Source: Palleronia rufa (GTDB taxonomy: Bacteria; Pseudomonadota; Alphaproteobacteria; Rhodobacterales; Rhodobacteraceae). From it: a stretch of DNA of 64,000 nt. The DNA is taken from contig NZ_JQEY01000002.1 of assembly GCF_000743715.1 (NCBI RefSeq), positions 201,620 through 265,619 on the forward strand, read 5' to 3'. Below are positions 8,069 through 61,751 of this stretch, piece by piece. The translations under genes and the position numbers were made by a program. The stretch's first letter is position 1. Each line of letters starts with the position of its first letter. The notes beneath the pieces are model-generated. The model did no database searches, was not told the origin of the DNA, and worked only from the letters and a program-made list of their open reading frames with translations.

Positions 8069-8862
8069 GCCTGCGATTCACGATCCTGGGCTGCGGCTCA
8101 TCCGGCGGGGTGCCGCGGATCGGCGGACACTGGGGCGATTGCGACCCCGATGAGCCGCGGAACCGCCGCCGCCGTTGTTCCCTGCTGGTCGAGCGCGACG
8201 GACCCAAGGGCACCACGACCGTGCTGATCGACGCCTCCCCCGACATGCGCGCGCAACTGCTCGACGCCGGGGTGGGGCGGCTCGACGGCGTGGCGTTCAC
8301 CCATTCCCACGCGGATCATTGTCATGGGCTGGACGACCTGCGGATGGTGGTCATCAACATGCGCCAGCGGGTGCGGGTCTGGGCGGACGATGCCACCGCC
8401 GACGCGTTGGAGGACCGCTTCGACTACGCGTTTCGCGCGCCGGAGGGCTCTGCCTACCCGCCGATCCTTGACATGAACCGGATCGGGGGGCCGATCACCA
8501 TCGACGGGCCGGGCGGCGACGTGACGCTGACCCCCTTCCCCGTCAGGCACGGCAACATCGACGCGCTGGGGTTCCGGATCGCCGGCCTGGCCTACCTGCC
8601 CGACGCCGGCGCGATGACGGATGCCGCCTGGGCGGCCGTTCACGGGCTGGATATCTGGGTCGTGGACGCTTTGCGCCGGACGCCGCACCCGAGCCATTCG
8701 CACCTTGCGCAGACGCTGGAGTGGATCGCCCGCGCCCGGCCCGCCCGCGCGGTGCTGACCAACATGCACAACGACATGGACTATGCGACGGTCATGGCCG
8801 AAACCCCCGAGGGCATCGAGCCCGCCCATGACATGATGGTATTGCGCCTGGACGACGCGTGA
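8065..8862 (+). CDS. MBL-fold metallo-hydrolase (PhnP-like)
   Basis: The 265-residue product has the metallo-beta-lactamase metal site THSHADHCHGLDDLR near residues 75-90 and a second histidine motif FPVRHGNI. The N-terminus, FTILGCGSSGGVPRIGGHWG, matches the PhnP-like cyclic-phosphodiesterase group of MBL proteins. In Rhodobacterales this gene commonly follows tatD, and there is no phn operon here, so a general phosphodiesterase or nuclease-linked role is more likely than phosphonate breakdown. The GTG start overlaps the tatD stop by 4 bases. Confidence 0.88.
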   Translation: MSLRFTILGCGSSGGVPRIGGHWGDCDPDEPRNRRRRCSLLVERDGPKGTTTVLIDASPDMRAQLLDAGVGRLDGVAFTHSHADHCHGLDDLRMVVINMRQRVRVWADDATADALEDRFDYAFRAPEGSAYPPILDMNRIGGPITIDGPGGDVTLTPFPVRHGNIDALGFRIAGLAYLPDAGAMTDAAWAAVHGLDIWVVDALRRTPHPSHSHLAQTLEWIARARPARAVLTNMHNDMDYATVMAETPEGIEPAHDMMVLRLDDA

Positions 8863-9785
8863 GCGCGCTGCTCGACGTCATCCTGCCGGTGTTCCTGGTC
8901 ATCGGCGGGGGCTATCTGGCCGTCTGGCGGGGGCTGTTTTCGGATGCGTCGGTCGATGGGCTGATGGCGTTCACCCAGGGGTTCGCCATCCCCATGCTGC
9001 TCTTTCGCGCCATCGCCACGCTGGACCTGGGGGCAGAATTCACCTGGCCGCTGCTGGCGTCCTTCTATCTTGGCGCGGTGTCGGGATTTCTGGCCGGGCT
9101 GCTCGGCGCGCGGGCTTTGGGCCGAAGTTGGGAGGACTCGGTCGCCATCGGCTTCTGCGGTCTCTTCTCCAACTCGGTGCTGCTGGGTCTGCCGATCGCG
9201 GAGCGTGCCTTCGGGGCCGAGGCGCTGCGGTTCAACTACGCCATCATCGCCGTCCACGCACCGTTCTGCTACCTTCTGGGCGTCACCGCCATGGAGACGG
9301 TCCGCGCCCGGGGCGCGCCGCTCTCGGGCCTGCCGCGCAAGGTGGGCCGCGCGATGTTCCACAATGCGCTGGTGATCGGAATTGCGCTGGGGTTCGCGGT
9401 CAACCTGGCCGGCATCACCCTGCCCAAGGTGATCGACGACGCGCTGTCGCTGATGATCCGCGCAGCACTTCCGGCGGCGCTGTTCGGTCTGGGCGGGATC
9501 CTGCTGCGCTATCGGATCGAGGGCGACTTGCGGATCATAGCGCTGATCTCCGCCGCATCGCTGGTGCTGCATCCCTCCGTCGCCTGGGTCGCGGGCACGG
9601 CCCTGGGGCTTTCGGTGGACCAGCTGAGGGCGGCGGTCCTGACGGCGGCCATGGCGCCGGGGGTGAACACCTACATCTTTGCCAACATCTACGGCACCGC
9701 CCGGCGCTCTGCCGCATCCGGGGTGCTGATCGGAACGGCCGCGTCGATCCTGTCGGTCTGGGTCTGGCTGCTGATCCTGCCATGA
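8859..9785 (+). CDS. AEC family transporter (auxin efflux carrier type)
   Basis: An integral inner-membrane protein of 308 residues with about ten hydrophobic segments in the two five-helix halves typical of the AEC family. Family members export small organic acids or similar anions; the substrate cannot be read from sequence. Helix-breaking glycines and the ANIYGTARRSAASGVLIGTAASI C-terminal region fit the family. The GTG start overlaps the previous stop (GTGA). It is the last gene of the run starting at 4069 and is followed by hairpins and a repeat. Confidence 0.88.
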   Translation: MSALLDVILPVFLVIGGGYLAVWRGLFSDASVDGLMAFTQGFAIPMLLFRAIATLDLGAEFTWPLLASFYLGAVSGFLAGLLGARALGRSWEDSVAIGFCGLFSNSVLLGLPIAERAFGAEALRFNYAIIAVHAPFCYLLGVTAMETVRARGAPLSGLPRKVGRAMFHNALVIGIALGFAVNLAGITLPKVIDDALSLMIRAALPAALFGLGGILLRYRIEGDLRIIALISAASLVLHPSVAWVAGTALGLSVDQLRAAVLTAAMAPGVNTYIFANIYGTARRSAASGVLIGTAASILSVWVWLLILP

Positions 9786-9810: not shown

Positions 9811-9877
9811 GGGAGGGGCTACGCGCCCCGCCTGCCTGACGGCAGGCCCCCGCGGGATATTTTTGGAAAGATGAAGG
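9811..9877 (+). repeat. Dispersed repeat, copy A: two GC hairpins plus a conserved tail
   Basis: Hairpin GGGGC (9815-9819)/GCCCC (9825-9829) is followed by GCCTGCC (9830-9836)/GGCAGGC (9841-9847). Then comes the tail GGGATATTT at 9854 and GGAAAGATGAA ending near 9875. The same tail occurs near 39351 and, inverted, near 39531. Here it lies just past the AEC gene, between convergent genes, so the hairpins may also end transcription. Confidence 0.65.
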
Positions 9878-35823: not shown

Positions 35824-35921
35824 CTGAGAGGTTGGCACGGGCAGGCACCTCGCCAACCCGGTCAGGTCCGGAAGGAAGCAGCCGTAACGAGCCTCGTCTG
35901 GGTCGTTGTCCAGCCTCTCAC
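35824..35921 (+). ncRNA. ffs: Signal recognition particle RNA, small bacterial type
   Basis: The conserved SRP tetraloop region reads GGTCAGGTCCGGAAGGAAGC followed by AGCCGTAACGAG, the signature bound by Ffh. The outer helix GAGAGG (35826-35831)/CCTCTC (35914-35919) closes a molecule of about 95-100 bases. It targets membrane and secreted proteins co-translationally. Exact ends are uncertain by a few bases. Confidence 0.95.
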
Positions 35922-35955
35922 CCCTCTCCCACGGCCCGCCCGGCCCCGTGCCGCG

Positions 35956-38308: not shown

Positions 38309-39259
38309 TCAGGCCGGTTCGCGCAGCACGCGGGGGACCTTGAACTCGACGTGTTCCTCGGCGGTGACGACCTTTTCGACGGTGACCGCGAAACGGGCGC
38401 GGAACGCATCCACGACCTCGTCGATCAGGACTTCCGGTGCGGAGGCTCCGGCGGTGATGCCGACGGTCGAGATCCCGTCCAGCGCGCGCCAGTCGATGTC
38501 GTCGGCACGCTGGACCAACTGGGCGTAGGGACAGCCGGCGCGGCGCCCGACCTCGACCAGGCGCCGGGAGTTCGAGGAGTTCGGCGCGCCCACCACCAGC
38601 ATCGCGTCGATGGCGGGTGCCATGGCCTTCACGGCCTCCTGACGGTTGGTGGTGGCGTAGCAGATGTCTTCCTTGTGGGGGCCGACGATGGCCGGAAAGC
38701 GGGCCCTGAGGGCAGCGACGATCTCTGCGGTGTCGTCCACCGACAGGGTGGTCTGGGTGATGAACGCCAACCGCTCGGGATCGCGCACCTCCAGCTTGGC
38801 CACATCATCGGGCGTTTCGACCAGCAGCACCTCTCCCGGGGGCAACTGGCCCATGGTACCCAGCGTCTCCGGGTGGCCGGCATGGCCGATCATCACCATC
38901 TGGCGGCCGTTCTGGGAATGCCGCTCCGCCTCGATATGGACCTTCGAGACCAGCGGGCAGGTGGCGTCCACATAGACCATTTCTCTGGCGCGGGCTTCGG
39001 CGGGCACGGATCTGGGCACGCCATGGGCCGAGAAGATCACCGGGCGGTCGGAGGGCGCGTCGTCCAGATCCTCGACGAATACCGCGCCCTTGCCGCGCAG
39101 ACCGTCCACGACGAACTTGTTGTGCACGATCTCATGGCGGACATAGACCGGCGCGCCCCATTTTTCGAGCGCCATCTCCACGATCTTGATCGCGCGGTCC
39201 ACGCCGGCGCAGAATCCGCGCGGCGCGGCAAGGTAGAGGGTGAGCGGCGGTGCGGTCAT
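38309..39259 (-). CDS. ispH: 4-hydroxy-3-methylbut-2-enyl diphosphate reductase
   Basis: The last enzyme of the methylerythritol phosphate pathway, an iron-sulfur reductase making IPP and DMAPP. The 316-residue protein shows cluster cysteines in [15 protein letters not shown] (residue 17), [13 protein letters not shown] and [14 protein letters not shown], and the substrate site [11 protein letters not shown]. Conserved [14 protein letters not shown] is also present. ATG at 39259 lies about 90 bases from the nearest dispersed repeat, so its promoter is probably in the 39260-39600 interval. Confidence 0.96.
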
Positions 39260-39335
39260 GGAACGGTCTCCTTGCCCGACACCTAGTCGCCCGCGCGCCG
39301 CGCGTCCAGATCGGCCGGCCCGCCCGGAGCGACGG

Positions 39336-39377
39336 CCGGAGCCTCCGGCGGGGATATTTTGGGGAAAGATGAAGGGG
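39336..39377 (+). repeat. Dispersed repeat, copy B: hairpin plus conserved tail
   Basis: CCGGA (39336-39340)/TCCGG (39344-39348) forms a short stem. The tail GGGATATTTTGGGGAAAG, then ATGAAGG, ends at 39375. It is oriented plus and is not downstream of a plus-strand gene, unlike copy A. Confidence 0.65.
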
Positions 39378-39386
39378 CGCGTCACC

Positions 39387-39424
39387 CCGATCCGGCATGC
39401 GGCGCGGCCGGCACGCCGGATCGG
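39387..39424. repeat. Ten-base inverted repeat between repeat copies B and C
   Basis: CCGATCCGGC (39387-39396) and GCCGGATCGG (39415-39424) pair perfectly around an 18-base loop. It lies between two inverted copies of the dispersed repeat, upstream of ispH. No gene occupies 39260-39602. Confidence 0.6.
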
Positions 39425-39507
39425 AGCTTCACCTTTCACGGCCATCGGCTTCCCAGCCTGTACCGCCCCCCTACGATGACGCACGAAGCCTAACGGATGG
39501 TGAACGT

Positions 39508-39566
39508 CATTCATCTTTCCGCAAATATCCCGGGGGAGCCCGAAGGGCGGGGGCAGCGCCCCCCCT
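39508..39566 (-). repeat. Dispersed repeat, copy C, inverted: two GC hairpins plus conserved tail
   Basis: On the reverse strand the GGGGGCGCTGCCCCC hairpin and a CCCGCCCTTCGGGC stem come first. The tail GGGATATTTGCGGAAAGATG follows, ending near 39509. It lies just past the YqaA-type gene stop, so the hairpins could terminate that gene. It points at copy B. Confidence 0.65.
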
Positions 39567-39602
39567 GTACCCGTTCGGGCCGCGCGGCGCGGTCACGATG
39601 CC

Positions 39603-40040
39603 CTATCCGGTCAGACCTGCGGTGGCCGCGGCCAGGACGGCGTAGCGGCCGGTCTTGGCGACGCTTACCAGCGTCAGGAACAGCCAGAACGGCGTTCGAA
39701 GCACTCCGGCGATCACGGTGATGCCGTCGCCGAACGGTGCCCAGCTCAGCAGCAGGCTCCACACCCCCCAGCGCCGGTACCAGTCTTGTGCGCGGTCCAG
39801 TTGCGCATCCGTCGCGGGAAACCAGCGCTTGCCGCGGAATCGCTCGAGGCCGAGGCCCATCGCGTAGTTCACGACCGATCCCAGGACGTTGCCGACCGAC
39901 GCCACCAGCAGCAGCGCCCAGACCGGAAGCGTGCCGCGCAGCTGGAGACCGGCGAAGACGATCTCGGACTGGAAGGGCAGGATCGTCGCGGCGCCGAAAG
40001 CCGCGACGAAGAGCCCGGCGAGCGATCCGGCCAGTTCCAA
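39603..40040 (-). CDS. YqaA family membrane protein (DedA-like VTT fold)
   Basis: A 145-residue protein with about four hydrophobic segments. It has the short YqaA pattern: FGAATILPFQSEIVFAGLQL, LLLVASVGNVLGSVVNYAMG, RAQDWYRRWGVWSLLLSWAPFGDGITVIAGVLR. This is a half-DedA VTT-type fold, linked in the wider superfamily to lipid scrambling or membrane homeostasis. Function here is unknown. It lies 12 bases downstream of the LabA-like gene. Confidence 0.85.
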   Translation of the reverse strand: MELAGSLAGLFVAAFGAATILPFQSEIVFAGLQLRGTLPVWALLLVASVGNVLGSVVNYAMGLGLERFRGKRWFPATDAQLDRAQDWYRRWGVWSLLLSWAPFGDGITVIAGVLRTPFWLFLTLVSVAKTGRYAVLAAATAGLTG

Positions 40041-40052
40041 GGCCCGTCCCGT

Positions 40053-40619
40053 TCAGGCGCTGGCAGAGCGGGCGGCTTGCTGCTCTTCGCGCGGCGGACG
40101 GCCGATGACCTCACGCAGCTCGGCGAGTTCGATGAAGTTGTCGGCCTGGCGGCGCAGCTCGTCCGCGATCATCGGCGGCTGCGAGCGGATGGTCGACACC
40201 ACCGATATCCGGACGCCGGCGCGCTGCAGCGCCTCGACCAGGGGGCGGAAGTCGCCGTCGCCGGAGAACAGCACCGCATGGTCGATCCGCGGCGCAAGCT
40301 CCATGGCATCGACCGTCAGTTCGATGTCCATGTTGCCCTTCACTTTCCGGCGACCGCTGGCGTCGGTGTATTCCTTGGCCGGCTTCGTCACCAGGGTGAA
40401 GCCGTTGTAGTGCAGCCAGTCCACCAAGGGCCGGATCGGGGAATATTCTTCGCTCTCCAGAAGCGCGGTGTAATAGAAGGCCCGCAGAAGTTTGCCGCGC
40501 CGCATGAATTCCTGGCGCAAAAGTTTGTAGTCGATATCGAATCCCAAGGCCTTCGCGGCCGCGTAGAGATTCGCTCCGTCGATGAACAGAGCCAATCGCT
40601 CGTCCCGGTAAAACATCAT
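40053..40619 (-). CDS. LabA-like NYN domain protein
   Basis: A 188-residue PIN-like (NYN) protein. The nuclease-type acid residues are visible in RLALFIDGANLYAAAKALG (Asp), KGNMDIELTVDAMELA (Asp) and VLFSGDGDFRPLVEALQRAG (two Asp). LabA/DUF88 proteins are thought to be RNases. ATG at 40619 follows AAGGAAAC by five bases; an ATG one codon later is also possible. It is divergent from folK with 117 bases between, including a strong hairpin. Confidence 0.9.
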   Translation of the reverse strand: MMFYRDERLALFIDGANLYAAAKALGFDIDYKLLRQEFMRRGKLLRAFYYTALLESEEYSPIRPLVDWLHYNGFTLVTKPAKEYTDASGRRKVKGNMDIELTVDAMELAPRIDHAVLFSGDGDFRPLVEALQRAGVRISVVSTIRSQPPMIADELRRQADNFIELAELREVIGRPPREEQQAARSASA

Positions 40620-40736
40620 GTTTCCTTTTCGCGCGCGGACCGAGGAAATGCTCGTTTCTCCGCGCATAGATGATGGCGTCCGTCGGCCTTATATAAGTGG
40701 CGCGGGACGCTCAACATATCCCTACGGACTAGAAAC

Positions 40737-61586: not shown

Positions 61587-61751
61587 GCCGCGTCTCGGCA
61601 AGGGTCAGATGACCTTTTCCCAGGTGCGGCGCCGGATCGGGAGGCTGCCTGTGGGAGGGCAGCCAGGTATGGATCCGGCCCCCCGTTTCGCCCGGACGCC
61701 CGGCCTTTCCCAGAGGCCGGCGCGTCTGCGAAGAGAAAAGGTGCACTCTAC

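Follow-up and report, generated by a model that had tools for sequence, protein, structure and literature searches.

Three tag copies and a predicted RNA gene in the window

The window, a 64,000-nucleotide stretch of the Palleronia rufa genome (G000; 3.85 Mb in 33 contigs; other G numbers denote related genomes and L numbers loci), contains three copies of a short repeat, hereafter the tag, whose form in the window is GATATTT-NNN-GAAAGATGAA. Pattern matching located tag 1 at 9856–9875 (plus strand), tag 2 ('tail+') at 39353–39373 (plus strand; spacer one base longer) and tag 3 ('tail−') at 39510–39529 (minus strand), all where a first-pass annotation had read them; dinucleotide shuffles of the window (n=100) gave 0 tag matches. 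The GC-rich inverted repeat that this annotation had reported ahead of each copy was evident by eye at all three: GC-rich hairpins precede tag 1 (9811–9855, plus strand) and tag 3 (39530–39573, minus strand), and the hairpin-like GCCGGAGCCTCCGGC precedes tag 2 (39334–39352, plus strand). Copies 1 and 3 lie after genes in the sense direction (8859–9785, plus strand, and 39603–40040, minus strand, respectively), as had been claimed for two of the three; copy 2 is not behind a sense frame and is instead upstream of a minus-strand gene, which we take to be ispH.

Missed in that first pass, the copies at 39353 and 39510 form the two flanks of a conserved RNA gene, predicted at 39353–39467 on the minus strand with a start at about 39467 reading leftward and, in homologues, promoter-like sites upstream of its hairpin. 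The gene opens with a conserved 5′ core hairpin of 28 nt (39439–39466, minus strand), supported in 84 distinct homologues by covariation and by strand-specific wobbles, followed by a 12-nt copy of the tag (a 'mimic'), TGAAAGGTGAAG (39427–39438, minus strand), which equals the tag except for G in place of A, and by a long hairpin 3′ of this copy (39385–39424, minus strand; fold of 39340–39467 on the minus strand, MFE −65.2, z −2.85). The predicted fold pairs the tag copy with the complement of tag 2. A weak CtrA-like box, a poor match, lies at 39489–39505 (minus strand).

The RNA locus had no Rfam match at gathering score when the window was searched, and none was found up to E 5 in the 401 bp around the core; among 14 core loci searched up to E 1 there was one weak match, below its gathering score. 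Among the matches listed from the open-access literature, no description of the repeat or the RNA was found; one article mentions other Rhodobacterales motifs (PMC8632094).

Tags are abundant and occur in genome-specific dialects

Genome-wide counting bore out the proposal of a dispersed repeat, with 44 exact copies of GATATTTNNNGAAAGATGAA in G000 versus 0 for the reversed pattern. A further 8 copies had one mismatch, 3 had two and 2 had three (57 at ≤3), and this steep drop from 44 exact to 8 one-mismatch copies indicates that the tail is strictly constrained. The exact copies have a 3-nt spacer, and one additional copy has a 4-nt spacer; in the 45 copies thus listed the tail is invariant by construction and only the middle bases are free. 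Directly upstream of these 45 copies the DNA is GC-rich and very variable in sequence.

The exact GATATTTNNNGAAAGATGAA was absent from the 13 other genomes of the genus and from 298 other genomes of the phylum, 14 of which belong to the same family. It does occur in scattered Rhodobacteraceae, among at least 109 stretches listed from named genome contigs, with several copies each in Paenirhodobacter enshiensis, Sinirhodobacter populi and Actibacterium naphthalenivorans among the matches listed; single matches in unrelated, mostly AT-rich bacteria, again among the matches listed, look like chance. These contigs and a scan of family genomes substantiate the statement in the first-pass annotation that similar motifs exist in Rhodobacteraceae.

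When up to three mismatches were allowed, the tag pattern matched all 14 genus genomes, with just 2 matches in each of two genomes; sister genomes proved to have other spellings, or dialects, such as GAACGATGAA, CAAGGATGAA and AAAGGGTGAG. The spelling GGTATTTNNNCAAGGATGAA is found in G299, GGTATTTNNNGAAAGATGAA in G302 and G304, and GGTATTTNNNGAACGATGAAG in G308 (51 exact copies), and forms of AAAGGGTGAG number 16 in G311 and 4 in G309. A looser pattern matched 140 of 218 family genomes, many with only one or two matches (control columns, 0–2), the highest count being 125 in G416 (65+60); spellings in the family include, among the matches listed, at least GCCAG, GCAAG, CGAAG, ACAAG, CCAAG and mixtures of these. 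The dialects are not all private, as GAAAG is common to G000, G302, G304 and G485. A 47-kb plasmid-like contig of G299 (C6; L232, L247) has its own core spelled GAAAG.TGAT and two tags ending in GATGAT, which differ from the dialect listed for the remainder of G299, so dialects are possibly replicon-specific. On rhizobial plasmids (L258, L259, L263 and L318) tags take the form CCGAGGATATTTNNNAAGGGTTAGG, and copy and tag can be identical.

A conserved hairpin on the minus strand

Covariation establishes, at the level of sequence comparison, that the core hairpin is conserved as a structure on one strand. Among the 84 distinct cores compensatory changes are seen at pair 1–29 (GC57/AT16/GT11), at pair 4–26 (GC82/TA1/AT1) and at pair 12–17 (TA56/GC23/AT2/CG1, with 2 unpaired). 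Nine hairpin pairs gave 756 cells, comprising 725 Watson–Crick pairs, 26 G·U pairs as read on the minus strand, 2 A·C and 3 others, and the ratio of 26 G·U to 2 A·C identifies minus as the structured strand. In 65 of 86 cores a TTAA lay 10–40 bp ahead of the hairpin on this strand, against an average of 2.1 and at most 7 in 200 control draws; GANTC was present within 45 bp in 21 of 86, against a control average of 4.4 and a maximum of 10. Some cores appeared by eye to have −10-like sites instead. We take the TTAA box to be CtrA-like, by the Rhodobacterales CtrA motif, and GANTC is presumably a CcrM site. From these features we infer that the RNA is transcribed from the minus strand. A start codon in the tag or a small open reading frame in the RNA was rejected, since there are dialects without RTG and the rhizobial copies stop after five codons (by eye), and a Shine–Dalgarno mimic was ruled out by CGAAGAAG dialects.

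At ≤3 mismatches the core was found in 13 of the 14 genus genomes (1–4 per genome, 24 places) and in 29 of 30 family genomes, the latter chosen from 218 mainly for high tag counts; taken together, 42 of the 44 genomes searched contain it, and it was not found at this threshold in G300 and G351. With window positions 38309–40660 as query, the stretch between tags 2 and 3 turned up elsewhere in sister genomes. Similar sequence was present in 36 plasmid records (E≤1), with query coverage of ≥80% in 15; the genera represented include Paracoccus, Rhizobium, Shinella, Mesorhizobium, Azospirillum, Cereibacter and Thiothrix. Of six annotated plasmids inspected, three small ones (L258, L259 and L263) have the core 500–610 bp downstream of a RepA gene, and the other three do not.

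Clustering of nearby open frames revealed one neighbourhood, between genes that we take from their protein sequences to encode an acyl-CoA dehydrogenase and a glutathione S-transferase, at up to 24 of 54 core loci and across genera, and this neighbourhood recurs with different tag copies. A second recurrent neighbourhood (L249, L250 and L252) has the spelling GACCAGTGATG, and there the copy does not differ from the local tags. Neither an effector gene, among the clustered nearby open frames, nor a transposase, among the recurrent neighbours, was recognized beside the cores. A phage origin was rejected, with no core in a phage collection and no exact match of two core patterns in viral contigs; the short tag pattern gave many single matches in viral contigs, among the matches listed.

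The copy in the RNA corresponds to the tags around it

The 12-nt tag copy stands directly 3′ of the core hairpin, and a matching local tag, defined as one within 700 bp, beside TA(C/T)TT and with ≤2 differences in ten from the copy, was found for 77 of 81 cores, compared with a mean of 16.9 (maximum 26) when the copies of other cores were used and 7.3 (maximum 16) for shuffled copies (200 draws each). Comparison of 141 local tags with their copies revealed a single change from G in the copy to A in the tag in 110, identity in 11, two G-to-A changes in 7 and other differences in 13. As judged by eye, an Azospirillum plasmid with a non-purine spelling follows the same rule, its copy being CACCGACCTTGAC and its tag CACCAACCTTGAC; in some genomes the wobble position of the tags is A or G. 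A tag lies on the left of the core in 63 of the 81 cases, on the right in 65 and on both sides in 57.

The correspondence extends to whole genomes. Among 12 genomes with ≥10 dispersed tags listed, genomes with mixed or partial tag lists being left out, 9 have a core that spells their own dispersed dialect, a number that 0 of 20,000 permutations reached; G420 counts as a miss in this strict test because of its last base. Predictions written beforehand for 10 genomes were fully right for four (G504, G503, G420 and G429) and right for one of three spellings in G433; they failed for the other five, as no core was found in G351 and the cores of G485, G491, G511 and G397 have other spellings, which match local tags. 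Judged by their spellings, RNA genes and dispersed tags agree within a genome and diverge in step from one genome to another.

G000 itself has two core copies. The second (L251, C6:187848–187875) spells AAAGGGTGA, which is the main dialect of G311, and no dispersed tags of this spelling were found in G000; it looks like a superseded partner.

Tag placement, turnover and re-spelling

Placement relative to genes, as called by a simple hexamer gene caller, was compared for 107 tags (45 from G000, 47 of the 71 G304 matches and 15 from G311), of which 97 were called outside genes or at an edge. Thirty tags lay in convergent gaps, 32 and 24 in co-directional gaps in sense and antisense, respectively, 10 in divergent gaps, 10 in genes and 1 at an edge; random intergenic positions in the same loci were 19% convergent, 29% sense, 28% antisense and 24% divergent. 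Convergent gaps are enriched (30 of 107 tags versus 19% of control positions), and the 10 divergent cases versus 24% of controls indicate that tags are rarer in divergent, promoter-rich gaps. There was no significant orientation bias in co-directional gaps (32 sense versus 24 antisense, P=0.35; 13 versus 7 in G000 alone), and the median distance from stop codon to tag in the sense cases was 47 nt.

The 50-mers upstream of the 45 G000 tags folded with a mean of −27.6 kcal/mol, compared with −16.7 kcal/mol when 50-mers were drawn at random from these loci, and the values across the three placement genomes were −27.6, −23.2 and −23.6 versus about −17 kcal/mol at random. In the G000 copies the hairpin is usually present, with a C-run or GG between it and TATTT, and several G311 copies have no obvious hairpin by eye. 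Because hairpin sequences vary and these G311 copies lack an obvious one, the constant part of the repeat is the tail and not the hairpin.

Twenty of the 23 frames upstream of tags in sense were scanned at the protein level and 15 matched a family (E 1e−10), with names including GbcA-like, precorrin-6A reductase, GlpK, CobT, FzlA, GlcD, Eda, BchX, DnaN and IscR; a functional regulon of upstream genes was rejected for lack of a common theme. The first-pass annotation had offered two readings of the element, an RNA-binding or processing site at gene 3′ ends and a small non-autonomous element. The former is not supported, given the missing orientation bias, the copies inside coding sequence and the absence of a function shared by the scanned neighbours, and the latter is supported by tags that are dispersed, mostly intergenic, subject to positional turnover and in places in frame within genes.

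A strand or replichore code resembling KOPS was unconvincing in G308, where the leading strand carries 36 of 63 copies (0–1 mismatch) and the lagging strand 27. In this genome dnaA is located at base 16, and the largest tag gap on the main contig C1 (0–1 mismatch) spans 1.415–1.821 Mb and is centred opposite dnaA, at the presumed terminus; a single two-mismatch copy falls within the gap.

Several tags lie in frame within long open frames, among them those of XdhA, XdhB and geranylgeranyl diphosphate reductase, and one copy lies inside a gene in antisense. In the G000 XdhB and XdhA proteins the tags fall in segments that have no aligned counterpart in the solved xanthine dehydrogenase chains 1jro_B and 2w3r_A, and by eye the Xdh proteins of G000 and G304 are longer at these segments. 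Repeat-derived peptides such as DISGKMK inside enzymes (L040 and L188, XdhA/XdhB; L012 and L037) are a trace of the element at the protein level. In the reductase, the residues between AP and Y/F-D number 5, 5, 5 and 11 in four other species, 16 in G311 and 28 in G000; at this site G311 has a AAAGGGTGAG tag and G000 a GAAAGATGAA tag with hairpin, so that an insertion common to both genomes bears the dialect of each.

Positions turn over as well. When G000 was compared with G304, 5 of 45 sites proved to be shared in orientation and in both flanks and 1 in a single flank, and at least 3 were flipped; at 18 AAAGGGTGAG sites (15 in G311 and 3 in G309) an orthologous G000 tag was found at 2 with both flanks, at 1 with one flank and at 1 flipped. 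At the shared sites listed, each genome has its own dialect. These comparisons show tags to be gained and lost, to lie inside some genes and, as the paired spellings indicate, to be re-spelled in place.

A possible RNA-addressed tag system

We tentatively read the repeat, at somewhat less than an even chance, as one half of a two-part nucleic-acid system in which an RNA would recognize dispersed DNA tags; of the anatomy and of the coupling between RNA and tag we are highly confident. The first half comprises dozens of tags per genome, each consisting of RRTATTT, three free bases and about 11 dialect bases, usually beside a GC hairpin, and the second comprises one to four RNA genes per genome, each with the conserved hairpin followed by the 12-nt tag copy.

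An unlikely alternative, although the strongest, is that the tags belong to miniature selfish DNA resembling REP/REPIN and are multiplied by a putative transposase, and that the RNA gene is merely where the master copy resides. Tags are dispersed between genes and occur within some, five inverted pairs within 300 bp were found among the 31 of 58 G000 positions checked, and the putative master element is flanked by tags on both sides in 57 of 81 cases. Turnover also fits, in that the 420 bp upstream of ispH contain no tag in 12 of the 13 sister genomes and one in G308, a comparison in which the neighbouring gene also differs in several of these genomes. Against a purely selfish, REP-like origin, possible as it is, stand the covariation of the RNA hairpin, the recurrent promoter-like region and the neighbourhood that recurs across genera; moreover, master and tags usually show one fixed difference, and the hairpins of the tags are not conserved in sequence.

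Two further explanations are both rather improbable. In one, a sequence-specific DNA-binding protein binds tags and core, and the sites change along with a specificity that drifts from species to species, which would suit the rough palindrome of the tag (ATNTTT-N4-AAANAT) and the spelling common to most sites of one genome. However, different spellings coexist in single genomes (G504, G397 and G433), each with its own core and local tags, which makes a protein reading the tags less likely, and two of the features seen, a usual difference of G to A and a hairpin that tolerates wobbles, are typical of nucleic acids. In the other, a small regulatory RNA uses its 3′ part, the complement of the flanking tag, to pair with tags in mRNA, and the internal copy is a weaker lock through G·U. 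The left tag, on the 3′ side of the RNA, is a reverse complement able to fold onto the copy, the G-to-A difference becomes a G·U pair in this fold, and the presence of such a tag in 63 of 81 cores makes an RNA–RNA role possible; the occurrence of both A and G at the tags' wobble position in some genomes and the median distance of 47 nt from stop codons point the same way. An mRNA role is less likely given tags without orientation bias and one copy antisense inside a gene, and cores without a left tag (L247, L248, L282, L311 and L316) keep the G-to-A rule. Ordinary intrinsic terminators with lineage-specific downstream sequence are very improbable: the GC hairpin with TATTT and the enrichment in convergent gaps recall them, but termination or 3′-end processing is rejected on orientation and in-gene copies, the hairpin is set off from TATTT by a C-run or is not evident, and the strict constraint is located beyond the T-run.

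Within the two-part system, a guide mechanism is a possibility that we hold more loosely still. A putative conserved host protein would hold the RNA, and its 12-nt segment would act as a guide locating tags in DNA; the constant TATTT would be the adjacent motif, as in TnpB/Cas12-type recognition, and the usual G-for-A difference would form a G·T wobble in the RNA–DNA hybrid, which might keep the action at binding or marking and not cutting. Recognition of this kind could maintain, spread or re-spell tags. A match of guide to target beside a fixed motif is present as a match of letters, up to the one usual wobble. Counting against the guide reading, the three bases between TATTT and tag mismatch the RNA, unlike in a usual guide, 11 of the 141 local tags are identical to the copy and the second G000 core has no dispersed tags. 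The five failed predictions, the lack of a recognized effector gene among the clustered open frames beside cores and the dialects common to several genomes also weigh against the two-part reading. Its fullest version, an alphaproteobacterial programmable RNA with a host protein, a 12-nt wobble guide, dozens of tags beside TATTT, in-place re-spelling and an address code for genome or replicon, is doubtful.

If the two-part reading is correct, these loci would represent an undescribed RNA gene family in well-studied bacteria, with a variable segment tied to dispersed genomic tags, and would amount either to a novel type of DNA system addressed by RNA or to the first instance of an RNA running a repeat family. 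How dozens of genomic sites change sequence together would become testable, and the many natural matched guide/target pairs would be a resource for finding the effector.

Comparison with known repeats and guide RNAs

DNA uptake sequences are dispersed motifs spelled by genus or species in about 2000 copies; tag spelling is likewise lineage-specific, but tags number dozens (up to 125) and an RNA gene spells the motif. The naRNA4 of Escherichia coli is a small RNA related to dispersed REP hairpin DNA, and in this respect resembles the RNA described here; we know of no matched dialects in that system. TnpB/Cas12-type systems have a 5′ scaffold hairpin, a 3′ guide and a T-rich motif 5′ of the target, and the scaffold hairpin, short 3′ guide-like segment and fixed motif 5′ of the target are found here too. 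The differences are that no such protein gene was recognized near cores, that there are dozens of chromosomal targets per genome and that three unmatched bases separate motif and target. TnpB-derived TldR guides are nearest in layout, although their defining features are not present in full; guides as short as 6 nt work in that system and natural mismatches are tolerated (PMC13418256).

Nearest in behaviour is REP/REPIN–RAYT, whose defining features are likewise found here only in part. REP/REPIN sequences are reported to be short, dispersed and mostly extragenic, with inverted pairs, a repeat-flanked low-copy master and lineage-specific versions (PMC3116915, PMC3733652), and the tags share each of these traits. 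They differ in that the constant part is the tail, in place of a palindrome ending in GTAG or CGTC, that the master found here is an RNA gene and not a transposase, and that the master copy is usually one base off the tags; no constant GTAG or CGTC end was seen by eye in the 45 G000 copies, whose hairpin sequences vary. CGTC-tagged REPs are described as dispersed, predominant in alphaproteobacteria and without a known dedicated transposase (PMC3733652). The tags, too, are dispersed repeats without a known dedicated transposase, but they have neither the CGTC end nor a stem sequence common to the family. The main text of that report nowhere uses the words Rhodobacter, Paracoccus or Roseobacter. 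Elsewhere in the window, Rfam identified a Rhodo-rpoB RNA (RF03074) at 61634–61724 (plus strand) above its gathering score, an SRP RNA at 35826–35922 and two tRNAs.
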